A stretch of DNA of 64,000 bases from Haladaptatus caseinilyticus (GTDB lineage Archaea; Halobacteriota; Halobacteria; Halobacteriales; Haladaptataceae). Position numbers and translations under genes: made by a program. Position 1 is the first letter of the stretch. Each line of letters starts with the position of its first letter. The stretch covers positions 1,178,001-1,242,000 of the forward strand of contig NZ_CP111036.1 in the NCBI RefSeq assembly GCF_026248685.1, read 5' to 3'. The notes under the pieces are model-generated. The model was not told the origin of the DNA. It saw only the letters and a list, made by a program, of their open reading frames with translations, and searched no databases. Below, piece after piece: positions 40,894-50,095 of this stretch.

Positions 40894-41127
40894 TACAATC
40901 CTCCATTATCTATTATGTAGTTATAGAGTATAAGCCATCCGATCGTTCCATCGATCGTCAAATACTATCCTCGGTGGCTACCTATCGTTCTCCCTGTCCG
41001 CTCTTATATTTCGTTCTCCCCTCTATTTGTTTTTGAGCCACATTTCCGCCACTCATTGATGATACCATATTAATCCCTTGCGATTGCAACCCCACTACCT
41101 TCTCCACCGCGTCCCAATCCATCGTCC

Positions 41128-41349
41128 ATGCTCGGACCACTGACGGTCGGCAAGAAAGCGGCAAAGTTCGGCTATCGAAAATTCGGCAAATTCGGTGCAG
41201 TCGTGTTCGGTGCCGTTGCCGTCGGCGGATATTTCGCCGCCAAACGAAAAGTCAAATCGATGATGGCGGGTGACCAACCGTCGGTGGATGAAAACGAGAA
41301 CACTGAGGACACCGAAACAGGGACGGAACAGAGTCAGCAGGCCGAATAA
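41128..41349 (+). CDS. small single-helix protein (73 aa)
   Basis: 73 aa: a basic N-terminus (GKKAAKFGYRKFGKFG), one hydrophobic helix (AVVFGAVAVGGYFAAKRKV) and a C-terminal acidic tail (ENENTEDTETGTEQSQQAE). The basic head, helix and acidic tail suggest a small membrane protein of unknown role. It stands alone with 235 nt of non-coding DNA upstream. The head-helix-tail charge pattern makes it more than a random frame. Confidence 0.55.
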   Translation: MLGPLTVGKKAAKFGYRKFGKFGAVVFGAVAVGGYFAAKRKVKSMMAGDQPSVDENENTEDTETGTEQSQQAE

Positions 41350-41616
41350 ACGCGTTTTCTTTCGATTTTCGGACGTGCGAGGAATGAAACCAAGTGAAAA
41401 CTTTCCAGCATCGATGGTGACTTGCAGACGCGCTTGCGTTTCGACTGACTCTTCTGTGAGCGAAGTGAGCAGTCCAAGCGACGACCGGTGTGAGGGGCGG
41501 AACGCCTCACAAAGCGAGCGGTGAAGTCACAAGCCGAGGGAGACGCACCGCCTTTAAACCGATGTTTTGCCAGTGAAGAAGTGTTTCTGACGCTTTTGAA
41601 CGCGACAAAATTCGGA
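41350..41616. other. intergenic region before tRNA-Pro
   Basis: About 270 nt between the small protein and tRNA-Pro. It includes a GC-rich stretch (about 41450-41525) with a short hairpin-forming pair GTGAGG and CCTCAC (about 41490-41509) and an open plus frame of Ser/Glu composition, but no credible gene. I see no recognised RNA. Confidence 0.4.
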
Positions 41617-41689
41617 TGGGATCGCCCGGATTTGAACCGGGGTTATCGGCACCCAAGGCCGAAAGGATACCAAGCTACCCCACGATCCC
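41617..41689 (-). tRNA. tRNA-Pro (anticodon TGG)
   Basis: 73-nt cloverleaf on the minus strand. Acceptor GGGATCG pairs with CGATCCC, discriminator A73; anticodon stem TCGGC/GCCGA around the loop CTTGGGT with TGG at 34-36; T-loop TTCAAAT between CCCGG and CCGGG. No intron, and CCA is not encoded. Confidence 0.95.
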
Positions 41690-41745
41690 GTACTCACGAG
41701 TAGCGCACTTGCACTGTAAAGCGTTTCGTTTCGCGCCCGCGCCTG

Positions 41746-43800
41746 TCACTCGTCATCACCGAACAGTTCGAGGTCGGCGACGATGTCGAACGGATGCTTG
41801 TCCTTCCTGATACCGTCCACGATTCGGAAGGCCTCGTCCGGTGCGAGGAAGTGACTCGTGATGACGCGGCCGAGGTGCGTCGGTGAAAAGCCGTCGATGA
41901 ACTCGTATTCGAGGAGCTTTCCGACGGCGTGCTTCGTCGGCACATCGCCGATCATTCGGTCGTTCAGCCGCTTCGCGGCCTTGCCGCCAACCGTAACGTT
42001 CGCCAGCGTTTCCTCGATAGCGGCGCTCTCGTCGTAGAGCGTCCGCACGTCTTCCATCTCGCCTTTCAGGAGTTTGAACGCCACTTCGTCCTCCGACATC
42101 TCCATGCTGTTGTGATAGCTTCCGTCGGGTTCGACGAGGACGTACACCTTTCCGCGGTCGTGATAATCCGGGCGTCCAGCACGCCCGAGCATCTGGTGGA
42201 ACTCCTGGACGGTGAGCCATTCGATACCCATTGCGAGCGAATCGAAGATGACCTGTGAGGCCGGGAAATCGACGCCGGCGGCGAGCGCTGCAGTCGTCAC
42301 GACCGCCGAAAGTTCCTGCTCGGCGAACATGCGTTCGACCTTCTTTCGTCGCCCGTAATCCAGTCCGGCATGATAGGGTGCGGCGTTGTATTCCAGTTTT
42401 CTCGAAATCTCGTGACAGCGTCGTCGCGAGTTGGTGAAGATGATGGTTTGGCCGCGATACCCCTTCGACGATTCGCGGTCGAACTCACGCTTGACCAGCT
42501 TGTTCTCGATGTTCGGTTTTTCTTGCCCGCTGGCGAAGGTGACGTGGCGCTCCAGCGCGACTGGACGCTCTTCGAACTCCACCAGATTGGCTTCTAGCGC
42601 CCCTGCGAGGTCGCGCGGGTTCCCGACCGTCGCGGAGAGATACACCCACTGTGCACCACCGTACTCCTGTTTTCGTTTTGCACGCCTCTCACAGTAGTAT
42701 TTCAACCGCGAGATGAGGCCGTCGAGTCGATGACCGCGCTCCTGTTCTTGCAGGGTATGAACTTCGTCGATGACGACCGTCCCGATGTCGCCCAGATCGC
42801 GTCCGGTTCGGAGCGCGTGGTCGATACCCTCGTAGGTGCCGACGATGATGTCCGCACTCGGGTCGAAATTGTTTCCGTCATCGCGCACGCGACTCGCACC
42901 GACGCGGATGGTCACGTTCGCGAGGTCGCCGTACTCCTCCTCGAAATCCTCGTGCTTCTGGTTCGCTAGCGCGACCAACGGCACCAGAAAGAGCATCTTT
43001 CCTTGCCCGTTCAGTACGCGGTCGAGTCCCGTCATCTCCCCGACGAGGGTCTTTCCGGTCGCCGTCGCGCTGACGACGAGTTGGTCGTCGCCGTCGAGCA
43101 GTCCGTTCTGTACTGCGAGACTCTGGACGGGGAGCAGGGTTTCAAACCGCGATTCGAGCAGGTTCTGGACACCCGGATGGAGGTTCAGTGAATCGACCCG
43201 CTGTAACTCCACGTCGTCGACGTTCGCGCTGATTTCGTCGAACTTCGTCAAGTCGGGGTCGAGACGACCCTTGAGCAGGTTCGTTATTCGCTCCAAATCC
43301 TGCACTTCCAACAACAAGTCCTCCAGACGGTCCTGTGCGGCCCCCGTTAGGTCTCCCCTGAAGGCGAGTTCTCGTTCCAACTCCTCCGTCGCGCAGTCGG
43401 GACAGATATATTCGTTGCCCGCGTCGATGGCCGTCTCACTGCTGATGGGAGAGTATTCGCCTTTGTTAGCACACAGTCGACAGGTTCGAACTGCTGTCGC
43501 ATCGAGCTGATAGCCCGAAAGCATCTCCTTCAATTCCGCACGTCCATCACGGGAGGTCTGCTGTGAGATACGGATACGGTCTGCACCTCGCGCGAGTTCG
43601 ATGAATTCATCCGGGTTCCGCGGTTTTTCGCTCGACCCGTTCTTCACCACAAACCGGCCCGGTCGCGGCCCGGCACTCGTTTCTTTGAGTTCGAGAATTC
43701 CCCGGAACAGTCGCTCACCGTCCCGTTGGGGAACGATCTGATAGCCCCGATCCGTCTCGTGGCAGAAGAGCGTTTCCACCTGCTGGGCCTGCTTCGACAC
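41746..43800 (-). CDS. Ski2-like DEVH-box helicase with zinc finger
   Basis: 684-aa superfamily 2 ATPase, haloarchaeal DUF5814-type helicase. Unlike Hel308 it begins with about 100 residues of unassigned domain, then a zinc-finger-like CRLC-x-CPDC pair (about 107-132). Core motifs: Q-like FETLLPVQSLAVQ, Walker A SATATGKT (about 245), DEVH (about 345), SATV after it, GQTIIFTNS, and motif VI QMLGRAGRPDYHD. The C-terminus lacks a long HRDC-like extension. Likely acts on RNA or branched DNA; the substrate is not shown. A stop-to-stop gap of 128 nt separates it from tRNA-Pro. Confidence 0.88.
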   Translation of the reverse strand: MSKQAQQVETLFCHETDRGYQIVPQRDGERLFRGILELKETSAGPRPGRFVVKNGSSEKPRNPDEFIELARGADRIRISQQTSRDGRAELKEMLSGYQLDATAVRTCRLCANKGEYSPISSETAIDAGNEYICPDCATEELERELAFRGDLTGAAQDRLEDLLLEVQDLERITNLLKGRLDPDLTKFDEISANVDDVELQRVDSLNLHPGVQNLLESRFETLLPVQSLAVQNGLLDGDDQLVVSATATGKTLVGEMTGLDRVLNGQGKMLFLVPLVALANQKHEDFEEEYGDLANVTIRVGASRVRDDGNNFDPSADIIVGTYEGIDHALRTGRDLGDIGTVVIDEVHTLQEQERGHRLDGLISRLKYYCERRAKRKQEYGGAQWVYLSATVGNPRDLAGALEANLVEFEERPVALERHVTFASGQEKPNIENKLVKREFDRESSKGYRGQTIIFTNSRRRCHEISRKLEYNAAPYHAGLDYGRRKKVERMFAEQELSAVVTTAALAAGVDFPASQVIFDSLAMGIEWLTVQEFHQMLGRAGRPDYHDRGKVYVLVEPDGSYHNSMEMSEDEVAFKLLKGEMEDVRTLYDESAAIEETLANVTVGGKAAKRLNDRMIGDVPTKHAVGKLLEYEFIDGFSPTHLGRVITSHFLAPDEAFRIVDGIRKDKHPFDIVADLELFGDDE

Positions 43801-44058
43801 GACGAATTCTATACGGTGAAGCTATTTGAGCGATTCGGACTGAACGAATCTCACGGTCGCCCTGCGTACTACTTTCGGACCGTGGTAGGCGATAGCAACT
43901 GTTCTGGAAATCGGTCCTTAAAATCCATCAACCGTCCAATAACACCCGTGAGAGAGCGTTATTCCGCGAATACCGTTTTGCAACCGGCTCATAACAAAGC
44001 CGGTTCGTTCGCTAACACCGGACAGCGCACTGCTGCGCCCTCAAGGTGGACAAAACGA
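43801..44058. other. divergent control region with an 8-bp inverted repeat
   Basis: 258 nt between the helicase (minus) and a 58-aa gene (plus). AACCGGCT at 43982-43989 and AGCCGGTT at 43998-44005 form an exact inverted repeat with an 8-nt loop, about 54 nt upstream of the plus-strand start. The open frame upstream of 44059 has no sensible composition. Confidence 0.45.
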
Positions 44059-44235
44059 ATGGAAGGCACGCAAGAAGAAGAACTCCCACGGCGGTTCGAT
44101 GAGAAGATCGTTCTGGAGATAGAGGATGGATCGGATCACGAACGACCGCTCATTCGAATGCGCGATACGCGAGCGGAAGAAGCGTGGGTGTCGACATCTA
44201 TCGATGCCGTGGTTTCGCTCTCCGAGCGTCGATAG
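44059..44235 (+). CDS. small haloarchaeal protein (58 aa)
   Basis: 58 residues, MEGTQEEELPRRFDEK followed by IVLEIEDGSDHERPLIRMRDTRAEEAWVSTSIDAVVSL in two stretches. The order of a hydrophobic strand, an Asp/Glu loop and an AWVST-like strand resembles the small haloarchaeal DUF7331-type proteins. The frame opens far upstream at 43726, but that region lacks coding character; the ATG at 44059 is chosen. Unknown role. Convergent with the cupin gene (11 nt apart). Confidence 0.6.
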   Translation: MEGTQEEELPRRFDEKIVLEIEDGSDHERPLIRMRDTRAEEAWVSTSIDAVVSLSERR

Positions 44236-44246
44236 ACCGGATCGCG

Positions 44247-44618
44247 CTAGACGAGGTTGATTTCATCGTCTCCGTTCGGCACTGCACAGAGAAAGGCACC
44301 AGATTCGTCGCCCTCGTTTCGATACCAATGAACGGCACCCGCTGGTATAAGCAGTGAATCGCCCGCGCTGACTTCGTATTCCTTGTCCCCGATGCCGACG
44401 ATGTACTCTCCCTCCAGCACGTACTGTTCGTGTTCGACTTCGTTCGTGTGCTCCGGAACCTTCGCGTTCGGTTCGAGCGTGAATCTCCGAATGGCGAAGT
44501 TCGGCGCCTCCTGTCGGTCACCGATGAGGACTCCTTTCGACATTCCGTCCGCGGCCCCGACTGCTTCGTATTCGATATCGTCCGGTTTTCGTACGATTGG
44601 TTCGACCATGGTCGCCAT
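44247..44618 (-). CDS. cupin-domain protein
   Basis: 123 aa, a single cupin barrel. The metal-binding motif 1 reads PEHTNEVEHEQYVLEGEYIVGIG in two parts (His55, His62 and Glu residues) and motif 2 is GDSLLIPAGAVHWYRNEGDE (His near 103). Metal binding is expected from the His/Glu pattern. Substrate unknown. The gene starts only 14 nt after the stop of the tnpB-like gene, so it may share its transcript or use a promoter inside that gene. Confidence 0.85.
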   Translation of the reverse strand: MATMVEPIVRKPDDIEYEAVGAADGMSKGVLIGDRQEAPNFAIRRFTLEPNAKVPEHTNEVEHEQYVLEGEYIVGIGDKEYEVSAGDSLLIPAGAVHWYRNEGDESGAFLCAVPNGDDEINLV

Positions 44619-44632
44619 TCACGGCATGGGGG

Positions 44633-45874
44633 CTAATGTTTTTGCACTTCAGCGAACTCCTCGTTCGGAACGAAATCCCCGTCCGGTGTTACTCGTCCCG
44701 ACCCGAGTGCGCAGTATCTTGCACCGACGCCGCGCGACGAAAGCGGTCCGCGACGGATGCAACGGAAGCCGACGTTTTTCGCCGCGTTGTAATGATCGTT
44801 CGCCTCGTCGCCACATTTCAGGCATTCGAAATGATTGCGCTCGATATCGCGATTCTGTGGGTGGGTGAACCCGCAGGACGTACATCGCTGACTCGTATAC
44901 TCCGGATTCACCTGCACGACCGTAATTCCACGCTCTTCTGCCCGATAGGCGACGAAATCGAACAGTCGGTCGAATACCCACGCGTGGAAGTCGTCGGCTT
45001 TGGGGAGTGTCTCGCGTACTGCTTCGAGTTCGCCAAACGCGATGACCGAACAAGCGTACTGTTCTGCCTCGCGTACGATTCCGCCAGCGACGGTGTGGAG
45101 GGTGTCCCGAACGAAACTGTCGTTTCGTTCACCGGCCTGTCGAAGCGTTCGGAGTGCGCTTCGAGTGTCAGTTTCGTTGAGGTCGGTGCGCAGTTCGGCA
45201 AACTCACGGTGTCGATGAGAGAGTTCATCGCCGGAGAAGAACCGTGCCGTGCTCGTCACCGCCAAACTATCGACACCGAGCGAGACGCCGAGAACTGTCG
45301 CACCTTCGTCCGACGGTTCGTTGTCGTTGGATGCTCCGATTTCGGGACGCTCGGCACGAAATCCGAGATGTAAATCGAACTCCCCGTTACGGTAGCGAAG
45401 GCTGCTCTTTGCAGGTTCCCAGCGGTCGTCGTTCAAATACTGCGTCTGGTATCCGCCGTCCTGAAAGACGAGGTCACACTGAACTCTGTCTTCGGTCGTG
45501 GTCAGGCTGACGCTCCGGTCATCGAACAGCGTCATGGTCCGGGTGTCGTACACGACCGTCGGACTGGTGAATTCCGGCTTTACAGCAGTTTCGGTATCCC
45601 CGTCGCTTCTATCGAGGGCTCCTTTTATCGCTTCGGCAGCGCGATGCGTCGCGAGAACCGCGTGCTGACTGCCGAGATCGGTACGCTCGCGAAGGACGTC
45701 GTAGGCGAGTTGCTGTACCTCACTGCGCGTATGGCAGTCGCCCCACGCGGTGTTGACCGCGATTTGACACCCCCGCTTCCACTCGCGCACCATCGCCAGC
45801 AGGCGGCCACGATCGGCCGACTCGACCGCGAGGCGGGTTACTGCTGTCCGCTTGAAATAGTCGGGACCAGTCAC
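44633..45874 (-). CDS. TnpB homologue with all three RuvC catalytic residues replaced
   Basis: Full-length 413-aa TnpB (IS200/IS605 type), the RNA-guided nuclease relative of Cas12. The N-terminal WED/REC region (KRTAVTRL, LGSQHAVLATHRAA) and SPTVVYDTRTMTLFDD are well kept, as are the zinc-ribbon cysteines C331, C334, C351 and C354. The RuvC residues are not: the Asp of GVDLG is Ser198 (GVSLG), the Glu of FEDL is Gly281 (FGEL), and the Asp of ANADYNAAKN is His361 (ANDHYNAAKN). A GTG start has a GGAGG Shine-Dalgarno at 45882-45886. No tnpA and no recognisable transposon end is seen. See findings. Confidence 0.85.
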   Translation of the reverse strand: MTGPDYFKRTAVTRLAVESADRGRLLAMVREWKRGCQIAVNTAWGDCHTRSEVQQLAYDVLRERTDLGSQHAVLATHRAAEAIKGALDRSDGDTETAVKPEFTSPTVVYDTRTMTLFDDRSVSLTTTEDRVQCDLVFQDGGYQTQYLNDDRWEPAKSSLRYRNGEFDLHLGFRAERPEIGASNDNEPSDEGATVLGVSLGVDSLAVTSTARFFSGDELSHRHREFAELRTDLNETDTRSALRTLRQAGERNDSFVRDTLHTVAGGIVREAEQYACSVIAFGELEAVRETLPKADDFHAWVFDRLFDFVAYRAEERGITVVQVNPEYTSQRCTSCGFTHPQNRDIERNHFECLKCGDEANDHYNAAKNVGFRCIRRGPLSSRGVGARYCALGSGRVTPDGDFVPNEEFAEVQKH

Positions 45875-45881
45875 GCTATTT

Positions 45882-45886
45882 CCTCC
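45882..45886 (-). promoter_or_regulatory. Shine-Dalgarno of the tnpB-like gene
   Basis: GGAGG on the minus strand (45882-45886), 7 nt before the GTG at 45874. A strong SD is unusual here, where most starts are leaderless, and it supports translation of this gene. Confidence 0.6.
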
Positions 45887-45964
45887 CCGGAGCGTCCCCT
45901 TGAATACTTCGGAGACGATGCGAGCGCGACGAACTTTAAGACGTTTCCGCCGCTAGATACTCCC

Positions 45965-47134
45965 ATGCGTAGCTTTCGAATCGGGAGTGCGTTTGGCATC
46001 CCGATCAAACTAGACCTCACGTTCCTGCTCATCCTACCCGTGTTCGCATGGCTCATCGGAACGCAGGTCGATCTTTGGGTGGAGACACTGAACCGGTTGT
46101 GGGGGCTTGGACTGACGGCAGAACCGCTTTCGTCCGGAATGATGCCATGGGTGTTAGGTGCCGCCGCCGCGGTCGGTCTATTCGTTGGCGTCGTCCTCCA
46201 CGAACTCGGCCATTCGGTCGTTGCGATGCGGTTCGGGTTTCCCATCGATTCCATCACGCTGTGGATTTTCGGGGGCATCGCCCGACTTACCGACCAGCCC
46301 GAAGACTGGCTCGAAGAACTCCTCATCGCTATCGCTGGCCCGGTCGTCAGTATCGTACTCGGTGTGGCCTCGTATCTCACGTTGTTCGCCATCCCCATTC
46401 AACTGGAAGCAGTCCGGTTCGTGGTCGGCTACCTCGCGCTGATGAATCTCGTGCTCGCCGCGTTCAACCTCCTCCCGGGCTTCCCGATGGACGGTGGCAG
46501 AGTCCTTCGTGCGTTGCTTGCGCGAACTCGTCCATTCGCCGAGGCAACCCAAACCGCCGCCGAAGTGGGGAAGTTGTTCGCCATTCTGCTTGGCCTGTTC
46601 GGGCTGCTCGGAGGGAACATCATCCTCATCGGTATCGCCTTCTTCATCTACATCGGTGCAACCGGCGAAGCCCAACAAACGGTTCTCTCGGCTGCGTTCC
46701 GGGACGTTCGTGTTCGCGACGTGATGACACCTGAAGAAGACCTCAAGACCGTCTCACCGGACACCTCGATTGCCGACCTGCTGGAGATGATGTTCCGACA
46801 GCGTCACACCGGCTATCCAGTCATCGAGGACGGCGATCTCGTTGGCATGATAACGCTGGACGACGCGCGGAGCGTTCGACCGGTCGAACGCGACGCCTAT
46901 CGAGTTCGGGAAGTGATGTCTACCGACGTGAAAACGATTCCCGCCGACAGCAACGCGCTGGACGCCCTCGAAACCATTCAGCAGCATGGTATCGGTCGAT
47001 TGCCGGTTATCGACACCGACGGAAACGTCGCGGGTATCATCTCTCGAACGGACTTGATGACGGCGTTCGACATCATCAAAAGCAGTGGGCGCTCGGAGGA
47101 GGAAGAGTTGACGCCGAGCGAACAACCGTTTTGA
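45965..47134 (+). CDS. M50 site-2 protease with CBS domains
   Basis: 389 aa intramembrane metalloprotease. Six or so transmembrane helices; zinc ligands in HELGHSVV (about 79-85) and the second motif DGGRVLRA with Asp (about 177-183). The C-terminus (about 250-370) has two CBS domains (VRDVMTPEEDLKTVSPDTSI and VREVMSTDVKTIPADSNAL), which in this family bind nucleotides and regulate activity. Likely cleaves a membrane-anchored transcription regulator or sigma-like inhibitor. A CTTTAAGA box sits about 28 nt before the ATG. Convergent with the SBP gene, 10 nt apart. Confidence 0.9.
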   Translation: MRSFRIGSAFGIPIKLDLTFLLILPVFAWLIGTQVDLWVETLNRLWGLGLTAEPLSSGMMPWVLGAAAAVGLFVGVVLHELGHSVVAMRFGFPIDSITLWIFGGIARLTDQPEDWLEELLIAIAGPVVSIVLGVASYLTLFAIPIQLEAVRFVVGYLALMNLVLAAFNLLPGFPMDGGRVLRALLARTRPFAEATQTAAEVGKLFAILLGLFGLLGGNIILIGIAFFIYIGATGEAQQTVLSAAFRDVRVRDVMTPEEDLKTVSPDTSIADLLEMMFRQRHTGYPVIEDGDLVGMITLDDARSVRPVERDAYRVREVMSTDVKTIPADSNALDALETIQQHGIGRLPVIDTDGNVAGIISRTDLMTAFDIIKSSGRSEEEELTPSEQPF

Positions 47135-47144
47135 TTTACCGTCG

Positions 47145-48755
47145 CTACTCGTCCAACGACATGGACCCATCGGGACTCACGAGGAGCGGATTGACTTGTG
47201 AGATGGGATGTGGTCGGAACCCCGAAACCCTGTTTTTCACCCCGAAACTGTTATGAAGCGTGTAGGCCGGAAGGTGAACCCGCTCTTCGAGGATGGTTCG
47301 AATACTCTCTTCGTATAGCCGCTGTCGCTTCCCGCGGTTCGACGTCCGCCGAGCGTTCTCGATTTGCTTCATCACGCTCTCATCGCGGTAGTAAGTGCCG
47401 TTGGTCAGCCCCTCGTTGTTGCTGTGGAACAGGGGATAGAGGAACGTGTCGGGGTCGGGATAGCCCGCCCACGACCCGACGAACATGGCATAGTTCCCCT
47501 GGTCGCCGTTGGTGACCAGTTCGCGGAACTTGGGCCACGGATACTTCACTGTTCGTGCCTTTCGGAATCCCATCTTCTTCAGACCGTGAACGATGGTCTC
47601 GGCTACTTTCTCGCGCATCTTATCGCCCGAACTCTTCGTCCCCGGAACCGCGATCTTCGGACTCCACGATTTCAGGCCCGCTTCCCCCTTAATGAGTTTC
47701 TTCGCCTCGTGGTGGCTCTTCTTTTTTGGAATCCTTTTCCACTCTTCGAGTGGCATATCCCACGATTTTGCAACCTGTCGGGGGAGCGGTCCATACTGTC
47801 GCCGTCCCGCAGGTTCGACCAGGTGTTTTACCAATTCGTCCATCGAGAGCAAGGCGTCGATACCTTCGCGTACTTTTGGCTTTGCCGTCGGCGTCCCGCT
47901 ACTGCAGTTGAATCCGACGAAATGGTAGTGATAGCTCTCGGCCGAGACGACCGTCGAATCCGGAAAGTCCTTCGTCGTCTGCCAGAGTTTCGGCTGGATT
48001 CGCTCGACGATATCGTTCTGTCCCGTTTTCAAACTCATTGTCCGCGCCAACCCGGCGTGATTGGGGACGAACTTTGCCCGTCGAATCGGCTCTCCCTGTG
48101 ACCGCCAGTGGTTTTTCCACGATGTCAGGGTAGCGTACTTTCCGGGTTTGAATCGGTCGATCCGGTACGGACCAGAGCCTATCGTCATCTTTTTTCCGAA
48201 CGCCGCCGGGTCCTCCTCTCGAATCGATTTCGGTACGACCGGTCGCGTCAGCGTATGCTCGAATCCCGGGTATGGGTTCTCGAGGGCGAACTCCACTTTC
48301 TTTTCACCGAGCGTCTTCATCGACCGAATCATATCGACGTGCCACTTGGTTGGTGGCGGCGTCTCCTCCTGATTCGGCTTCTCGAAACTGTATGTTACGT
48401 CTTCGGCCGTGACCGACGTTCCGTTCTGAAAGCGAGCCTCATCGCGGAGTTCGACGGTGTACTTTTTACCATCGTCGCTCCGTTTCGGTTTCCCGTTCGC
48501 TAGCACCGGAACGAGATTCATCCCGAAATCGTAGGTGTACAATCCTTCGAAGACGAGCGACTGGACTTGGCCGGACCACGGGTCGTCCACCGCGATAGGG
48601 TCGAGCGAGACCGGTGTGAGAACCTGCGCGTAACGCAACTGTTCGCCGGACCTACCAGCGACGCCAGTACATCCAGCGAGTGCCGCGGACCCGGCGACTG
48701 CGCCGATTCCTTTGAGGGCGGTGCGACGGTCGATCGTGTTCGAATTTTCGTTCAT
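47145..48755 (-). CDS. ABC-type solute-binding lipoprotein (SBP_bac_5, OppA/DppA type)
   Basis: 536-aa extracellular binding protein for peptides, nickel or other solutes. A Tat signal DRRTALKGIGAVAGSAALAGC with lipobox Cys places it on the cell surface as a lipoprotein. Family features: RYAQVLTPVSLDPIAV, LVFEGLYTYD, KPNQEETPPPTKW and RFQNGTSVTAEDVTYSFEK in short stretches. No ABC permease or ATPase genes are nearby; instead the APC permease gene ends 2 nt before this one starts. That pairing is unusual, see findings. Confidence 0.9.
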   Translation of the reverse strand: MNENSNTIDRRTALKGIGAVAGSAALAGCTGVAGRSGEQLRYAQVLTPVSLDPIAVDDPWSGQVQSLVFEGLYTYDFGMNLVPVLANGKPKRSDDGKKYTVELRDEARFQNGTSVTAEDVTYSFEKPNQEETPPPTKWHVDMIRSMKTLGEKKVEFALENPYPGFEHTLTRPVVPKSIREEDPAAFGKKMTIGSGPYRIDRFKPGKYATLTSWKNHWRSQGEPIRRAKFVPNHAGLARTMSLKTGQNDIVERIQPKLWQTTKDFPDSTVVSAESYHYHFVGFNCSSGTPTAKPKVREGIDALLSMDELVKHLVEPAGRRQYGPLPRQVAKSWDMPLEEWKRIPKKKSHHEAKKLIKGEAGLKSWSPKIAVPGTKSSGDKMREKVAETIVHGLKKMGFRKARTVKYPWPKFRELVTNGDQGNYAMFVGSWAGYPDPDTFLYPLFHSNNEGLTNGTYYRDESVMKQIENARRTSNRGKRQRLYEESIRTILEERVHLPAYTLHNSFGVKNRVSGFRPHPISQVNPLLVSPDGSMSLDE

Positions 48756-48757
48756 GG

Positions 48758-50095
48758 TTACTTGCTGACCCCCGGAATCGCGTCCTCGATTGGCTGTCGC
48801 TCGAAGTAAATCAGCTCGACACCGATGACGACCACGCCGATAAGGAGCACGAGGAAGAACGTGCTCGGACTGTTCAGGTAGAGGTTGTAGAGCAAGAGCG
48901 GGAAGAAGGCTACACAGCCGACCATTCCGATAACTGGCAGGGCGACTATCATGTCGTCTATCTCGTCTCGCTGGCGGAATGCCAGATAGCTCATCGCGCC
49001 GAAGACGGCGATGAACGCGAGCGACGCGAAGGAAGTGATGCTTCGAAGACTCCCGTACACCGCGAACGCGGCCGAAAGGACGCCCAGAACGATGACGAGT
49101 TTCGATGGAACTCCCTCGTCGTCGCTCGCACTGAACCGCTCCGGTAAAAGCCCCTTGTCGATAAGGTCACGGGAGAACTGTGCGCCGCTGAACAGCGTGG
49201 CGTTCACGGCACTGGCGGTCGAGAACAACGCGGAGATTCCGATGATGAACGCCCCAATCGAACCCATGTAGGGAAGGGCGGCGTACAGCAGCGAAACTTC
49301 GGGTGATACCGCGATGACCGACAGTTCGAGGATGCTGACGGTGGTAAACGCGACCAAAACGTACAGCAAGGTCGCTATCGGTATCGAGATGTAAATCGCC
49401 TTCCTGATGTTCTCCGTGGGGTTTTCGAACTGCGACTGATCGTACATCAGCAACTGCCAGCCTTGGAACGCGACGAACGACATCGCCGCGCCGATAATCG
49501 GGCTGAACCCCAACTCCGAAAAGCCAAGAGTGAGTGTCTGTCCGGTGTAGGCGAACCAGACGCCCCACGCTCCGAAGATGGCGATGACGCCGACCTTGAA
49601 GAAGGACAGCACGTCCTCTACCTTGCCCGTTTCGGCGGCACCGAGGAGGTTCAGGCCAACGAACAGTCCGATGAGGAGAACGGAAATCAGGTTCGGAATC
49701 GGTACCAGGAGTTCGTAGTTCACTACCGGAATCACGAGGGCCATCTGAAGCCGCCCGATGAGCTCCGAGAAGAACGACGAAAAGGCGTAGGCGTACAGCG
49801 CCATCGACCCGATGTACCCGAACAGGAGCGTCCATCCGGTCATTCCTGCCACCGTCGAATTTTCGACTATCTCTTCGATGTATGTCGGTGCTCCGCCGTT
49901 ATCATCCGTCAGCTCGTTCAGTTGGACGTAGCTATAGCCGGCACACAACGCGATGAATCCGGCAATGCCGAACGCCAGCCACGCGATTTTTCCGGAGATG
50001 GCGACGACGATACCGAACGCCGAGTAGATACCCCCGCCGATCATGCCTCCGAGGGCCATCGCTATCGCTTCCTTTAACCCAAGCGTTTCTCCCAT
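48758..50095 (-). CDS. APC superfamily amino-acid permease
   Basis: 445-aa secondary transporter with about 12 helices. The N-terminus GLKEAIAMALGGMIGGGIYSAFG contains the conserved GxxGxGIF-like helix-break motif read here as GGMIGGGIYSA, and the region SMALYAYAFSSFF and MSFVAFQGWQLLMYDQSQFENP follow. Expected to import amino acids or amines. It is followed 2 nt later by the SBP gene, and preceded by a bat-type regulator gene in the same direction. A CAAATTTA-type box (about 50121-50129) is about 27 nt upstream. Confidence 0.92.
   Translation of the reverse strand: MGETLGLKEAIAMALGGMIGGGIYSAFGIVVAISGKIAWLAFGIAGFIALCAGYSYVQLNELTDDNGGAPTYIEEIVENSTVAGMTGWTLLFGYIGSMALYAYAFSSFFSELIGRLQMALVIPVVNYELLVPIPNLISVLLIGLFVGLNLLGAAETGKVEDVLSFFKVGVIAIFGAWGVWFAYTGQTLTLGFSELGFSPIIGAAMSFVAFQGWQLLMYDQSQFENPTENIRKAIYISIPIATLLYVLVAFTTVSILELSVIAVSPEVSLLYAALPYMGSIGAFIIGISALFSTASAVNATLFSGAQFSRDLIDKGLLPERFSASDDEGVPSKLVIVLGVLSAAFAVYGSLRSITSFASLAFIAVFGAMSYLAFRQRDEIDDMIVALPVIGMVGCVAFFPLLLYNLYLNSPSTFFLVLLIGVVVIGVELIYFERQPIEDAIPGVSK

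Follow-up and report, generated by a model that had tools for sequence, protein, structure and literature searches.

The chromosome of Haladaptatus caseinilyticus carries, in the 64,000-nucleotide stretch of contig NZ_CP111036.1 analysed here (the window), a gene for a homologue of TnpB in which the acidic residues of the RuvC nuclease centre have been replaced (dead TnpB; gene, dead tnpB). The protein is best explained, with a probability of about 0.62, as a domesticated and non-cleaving TnpB without a recognisable guide RNA of its own, which would bind nucleic acids in a mode unlike that of the bacterial TldR proteins. An earlier sequence-only reading of the same DNA had proposed an archaeal, independently domesticated equivalent of TldR that silences a target by means of a guide RNA from the 3' end of the gene. 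The archaeal domestication is upheld by a single family-wide clade that is syntenic and under purifying selection; the TldR-like silencing is unsupported, as the 3'-end guide RNA that it needs is itself unsupported.

Catalytic residues and retained fold

Judged from sequence profiles, membership of the window protein in the TnpB/Cas12f family is firm, with matches to Pfam PF07282 (8e-19) and to the NCBIfam model guided_TnpB (1.7e-33, above the family cut-off). As had been claimed, it is a full-length homologue encoded by an intact reading frame of 413 codons with a GTG start (on the minus strand), and the zinc-ribbon cysteines are all kept (4/4). Its RuvC motifs read GVSLG (S198), FGEL (G281) and ANDHYNAAKN (H361), at positions where all the full-length TnpBs of the same order used as the canonical comparison set have D, E and D (32/32). 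A profile alignment places G281 and H361 on the RuvC-II Glu and RuvC-III Asp columns of AsCas12f1 (8j3r: MEDL, ANADYNAARN), in agreement with the claim that all three acidic RuvC residues are gone.

Among the 27 orthologues found in the family Haladaptataceae, the RuvC-II Glu has become Gly in every one, the first Asp is retained in 18 genomes (those of the other two genera) and is Ala or Ser in all nine Haladaptatus, and the last Asp is retained in 23 of the 27 and is His in the window protein and three close relatives. The expectation that syntenic orthologues share the substitutions therefore holds for Glu to Gly (27/27), but all three changes together are confined to the window protein and three others. 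Read along the alignment and the tree, the order of loss is the RuvC-II Glu first (all 27), the first Asp next (Haladaptatus) and the last Asp finally (four species). Catalysis has evidently been dispensable since the base of the family, and the protein itself has not.

The earlier reading had named E282 and D360 as acids that could have shifted into catalytic positions, in which case cutting or nicking would persist. D360 is a new residue, an Ala to Asp change fixed in the clade (27/27 orthologues vs 0/32 relatives), and the orthologues with D-G-D keep two of the three acids. However, position 282 is variable (25 E, 1 D and 1 K), the alternative helix position has no invariant acid (none at all in L058, YRAAARD), and the subclade of the window protein has only D360 near the site. 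With D198 and D361 lost as well, D360 cannot restore a three-acid site in the window protein and could hardly compensate there, though in the orthologues with D-G-D it might. Residual catalysis of this kind is thus very improbable. The genome also encodes a distantly related TnpB homologue (L002, G000:C7:131578-132198, minus strand) whose alignment likewise puts Gly at the RuvC-II Glu (INVGKL); its centre may be rearranged or dead, as far as so distant an alignment can be read.

The AlphaFold model of the window protein is of modest quality (mean pLDDT 72). Its best fold-search matches are AsCas12f, other Cas12f and TnpB complexes, with low global TM-scores, unsurprising given the several domains of the protein and the shallow alignment behind its model; by sequence and fold together, the best solved structures are AsCas12f1 (PDB 8dzj, 7wju) and ISDra2 TnpB (8h1j). 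A RuvC-I stretch of low confidence (residues 178-210) might have pointed to lost folding, but this reading was rejected, since a canonical control (L034) of equal alignment depth, whose model behaves similarly, shows the same. The columns conserved in canonical TnpBs are retained at 10/10 in the zinc ribbon, 12/14 in RuvC-I and 31/43 in the N-terminus, and are lowest around RuvC-II (2/7).

The 3' end of the gene and the search for guide RNA

Canonical genes of this group overlap with the omega RNA at their 3' end, and the RNA terminates in a hairpin and GTTGAC beside the guide; as read from the alignment, this terminal GTTGAC could pair with an upstream GTCAAC as a pseudoknot. A covariance model built from 13 canonical copies detected 22/22 held-out canonical loci, with scores of 53-146 bits; with the same model no omega RNA was found above 10 bits in any of the 27 orthologues. 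The two pseudoknot strands occur together in 32/41 canonical copies vs 0/27 orthologues. Rfam contains the haloarchaeal omega-RNA families RF02656/RF02657 (PMC12558985); an Rfam scan gave no match in the window, but the canonical control loci were likewise missed.

The DNA of the C-terminal tail gives the same picture from another side. The ratio of synonymous rates between the 31-codon tail and the body of the gene is 0.33-0.54 in five canonical groups, a lowering that is the mark of the embedded RNA, and 0.88 and 1.27 in the orthologues. Likewise, a scan for synonymous constraint picks out the tail in canonical sets (P 0.008-0.016) and finds no significant segment anywhere in the gene of the orthologues. 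In peptide conservation, the tail nonetheless ranks first or close to first within the orthologues, with a pN of 0.35-0.48 of that of the body. With the RNA constraint gone and the peptide constrained, the segment has therefore moved from RNA to protein constraint.

Beyond the stop codon, the sequence is unconserved in the large second genus (identity 0.00-0.38 per bin), and post-stop sequences are unrelated even between near-identical orthologues, for example L060 and L062. The 18 nt after the stop in the window, a conceivable place for a guide that would match a target beside a TAM, have no other genomic match above a reversed-pattern control. The last codons of dead tnpB (44633-44650 of the window) are unusually conserved as DNA in Haladaptatus and AT-richer (GCAAAAAC), and this stretch probably serves as promoter for the cupin gene that follows.

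A repressor of the TldR kind, which would carry its own 3'-end guide RNA and silence a target by RNA-guided DNA binding, would fit a protein with a dead RuvC centre and the rest of its fold kept, and such proteins are known in bacteria (PMC13418256). Against it stand the missing omega RNA at full sensitivity of the model on held-out copies, the loss of the pseudoknot strands, the tail free of synonymous constraint and the unrelated post-stop sequences, which together also count against the proposed guide RNA from the 3' end of the gene. We consider such a repressor distinctly unlikely.

The guides could instead come in trans, if the protein borrowed the omega RNAs of active IS200/IS605 elements within its own cell; it might then, for instance, compete with TnpB and so block its cutting, or mark empty donor sites. 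Most genomes of the family carry canonical TnpBs and many, that of the window included, carry omega-RNA-like sites; the protein surfaces are also largely kept. However, three genomes that are 98-99% complete (G001, G020 and G026) have no TnpB besides the dead protein, whose gene is intact, and the covariance-model search found no omega-RNA-like site there. Family-wide reliance on borrowed omega RNA of this type is therefore unlikely, and the insertion-sequence copies vary across genomes whereas the dead protein is invariant in place. Such borrowing is given a somewhat better chance than a guide RNA of the protein's own, though still a small one, and a different kind of RNA might act in trans.

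Three side observations concern the canonical elements. Four canonical TnpBs from different haloarchaeal genera (L072, L073, L077, L085) share CGGCCTAGGC in the guides just past their right ends, as if one target were reused. A hairpin resembling the terminal stem of the omega RNA lies upstream of other canonical copies (L068 1388-1430, L076 1388-1430, L035 2762-2804) and is presumably the left end of the element. An omega-RNA-like site of 39.5 bits with no adjoining tnpB reading frame (L103, G000:C3:139220-139352) is possibly a solo remnant.

Locus, inheritance and selection

A single-copy orthologue is present in 27/28 Haladaptataceae genomes at 66-85% identity, and the one genome without it is 62% complete. 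The orthologues form one clade with support 100/100; that of H. litoreus is the sole one from the named genome collection. The next-best matches in the order have at most 55% identity and are often multi-copy, and every one of them aligned over its full length has D-E-D. No orthologue was found outside Haladaptataceae, either at comparable identity in the order sample or in a class-wide sample.

The place of the gene is conserved as well. Of the 26 orthologous loci besides that of the window, 25 have the M50 protease gene on one flank, 25 have the cupin gene on the opposite flank, and 24 have the helicase gene. At ten loci from other families the M50 and cupin genes adjoin each other divergently, about 70-180 nt apart, and these intergenic spaces are apparent empty sites; in the remaining loci of other families the two genes are more distant or not adjacent. 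The spacing reported earlier for the window is accurate (Table 1). The cupin gene was considered as a functional partner and was set aside: it adjoins dead tnpB in Haladaptatus and lies 41 nt to 2.2 kb away in the large second genus, and because of this variable spacing it is not firmly coupled to dead tnpB.

Table 1. Features of the dead tnpB locus (positions within the window)
Feature	Position	Strand	Remarks
Dead TnpB homologue	44633..45874	minus	413 aa; GTG start, TAG stop; intact reading frame
Codon of S198	45281..45283	minus	RuvC-I
Codon of G281	45032..45034	minus	RuvC-II
Codon of H361	44792..44794	minus	RuvC-III
Zinc-ribbon cysteines C331, C334, C351, C354	44813..44884	minus	all four conserved
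C-terminal tail, residues 373-413	44636..44758	minus	same DNA is omega-RNA scaffold in canonical TnpB
Promoter-like block CGAAGTATTCAAGGG	45897..45911	minus	conserved, upstream of start codon; one copy per genome where found
M50-family protease gene with CBS domains	45965..47134	plus	divergent; start 90 nt before dead tnpB start codon; conserved neighbour
Cupin-domain gene	44247..44618	minus	start 14 nt after dead tnpB stop
DEAD-box helicase gene	41746..43800	minus	conserved further neighbour

The marks of IS200/IS605-type carriage (ends, tnpA or multiple copies) are missing from dead tnpB, which is single-copy and syntenic. A search of 41000-49000 found no transposon ends, terminal repeats or CRISPR-type regularly spaced repeats, and the earlier view that no transposon is present thus stands. 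The ratio of nonsynonymous to synonymous rates (dN/dS) is 0.143 in Haladaptatus, 0.105 in the subclade that has lost all three residues and 0.148 in the large second genus. A recent decaying copy of an insertion sequence, which the substituted catalytic residues alone might have suggested and which would have undone the earlier claim, is refuted and keeps next to no probability, as the 27 orthologues are intact and syntenic, with dN/dS of 0.10-0.15 at divergences of up to 34%.

Upstream of dead tnpB, conservation spans only about 45-60 nt and includes the promoter-like block. This block was rejected as a regulon motif or a relocated guide, since its exact pattern occurs in five genomes, once each and at this promoter only. 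The GGAGG Shine-Dalgarno noted earlier is present in the window but is not a family-wide feature, being GGAGA in other Haladaptatus and absent in the second genus.

Relation to known systems and proposed role

Dead TnpB resembles the canonical haloarchaeal TnpBs (IS200/IS605, IS1341-type; NF040570, PF07282) in its full-length homology, with about 50-55% identity to the nearest copies, and in its domain order, zinc ribbon, similar C-terminal peptide and related promoter region. The canonical proteins differ in having D-E-D, an omega RNA, a guide and transposon ends, whereas dead TnpB has a fixed chromosomal place and vertical inheritance. With the TldRs it shares derivation from TnpB, loss of the RuvC centre, domestication and a place outside any transposon. 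In contrast to them it has no 3'-end guide-RNA scaffold or conserved guide, and it is encoded by an archaeal core-chromosome gene; the flagellin TldRs are reportedly prophage-borne. Because the guide-RNA feature of TldR fails, dead TnpB is not filed under that group despite the shared origin and inactivation. The naturally inactive Cas12 proteins (Cas12m or V-M, V-C, Cas12k) are likewise RuvC-dead members of the Cas12/TnpB superfamily, but dead tnpB has no CRISPR-type repeat array nearby (41000-49000) and no identifiable guide. AsCas12f1 and ISDra2 TnpB, the nearest solved structures, are unlike it in being active nucleases with guide RNAs.

The sequence of events that would best account for these observations begins with host domestication of a TnpB in the ancestor of Haladaptataceae, between the M50 protease gene and the cupin gene, followed by vertical inheritance under purifying selection and loss of the recognisable 3'-end guide RNA. 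The present protein would neither cut DNA nor act in the TldR manner with a guide of its own. Its homology makes non-cleaving binding of nucleic acids, through the retained N-terminal, RuvC-fold and zinc-ribbon surfaces, the most likely activity; binding would occur without any guide, which we prefer, or with some other kind of RNA provided in trans. A regulatory role in a chromosomal process is probable. The more specific proposal, that dead TnpB is guide-independent, with the former scaffold DNA now coding only for the constrained tail of a RuvC-dead, guide-free nucleic-acid-binding factor throughout the family, is offered tentatively, at slightly less than even odds. Some points weigh against a domesticated TnpB without its own guide RNA. 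Most of the surface conserved in canonical TnpBs is retained, so a guide-like RNA could still be bound; the covariance model would miss an RNA that has diverged strongly or is encoded elsewhere; and nucleic-acid binding itself is deduced from homology.

No description of this family was found in the open-access literature, and papers on TldR and TnpB classification beyond it could mention one. To our knowledge, the known domesticated dead TnpB and Cas12 proteins stay RNA-guided. In Haladaptataceae, a stepwise and tree-placed loss of the nuclease is accompanied by the loss of the embedded guide RNA while the protein is kept. Preservation of the protein by selection after the loss of both its cutting residues and its guide RNA suggests a new job, maybe a guide-free one. 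If it is guide-free, the TnpB fold can be retained for a purpose other than RNA-guided targeting, and the natural archaeal series from D-G-D through A/S-G-D to S/A-G-H offers a model for how the nuclease of an insertion sequence becomes a host gene.
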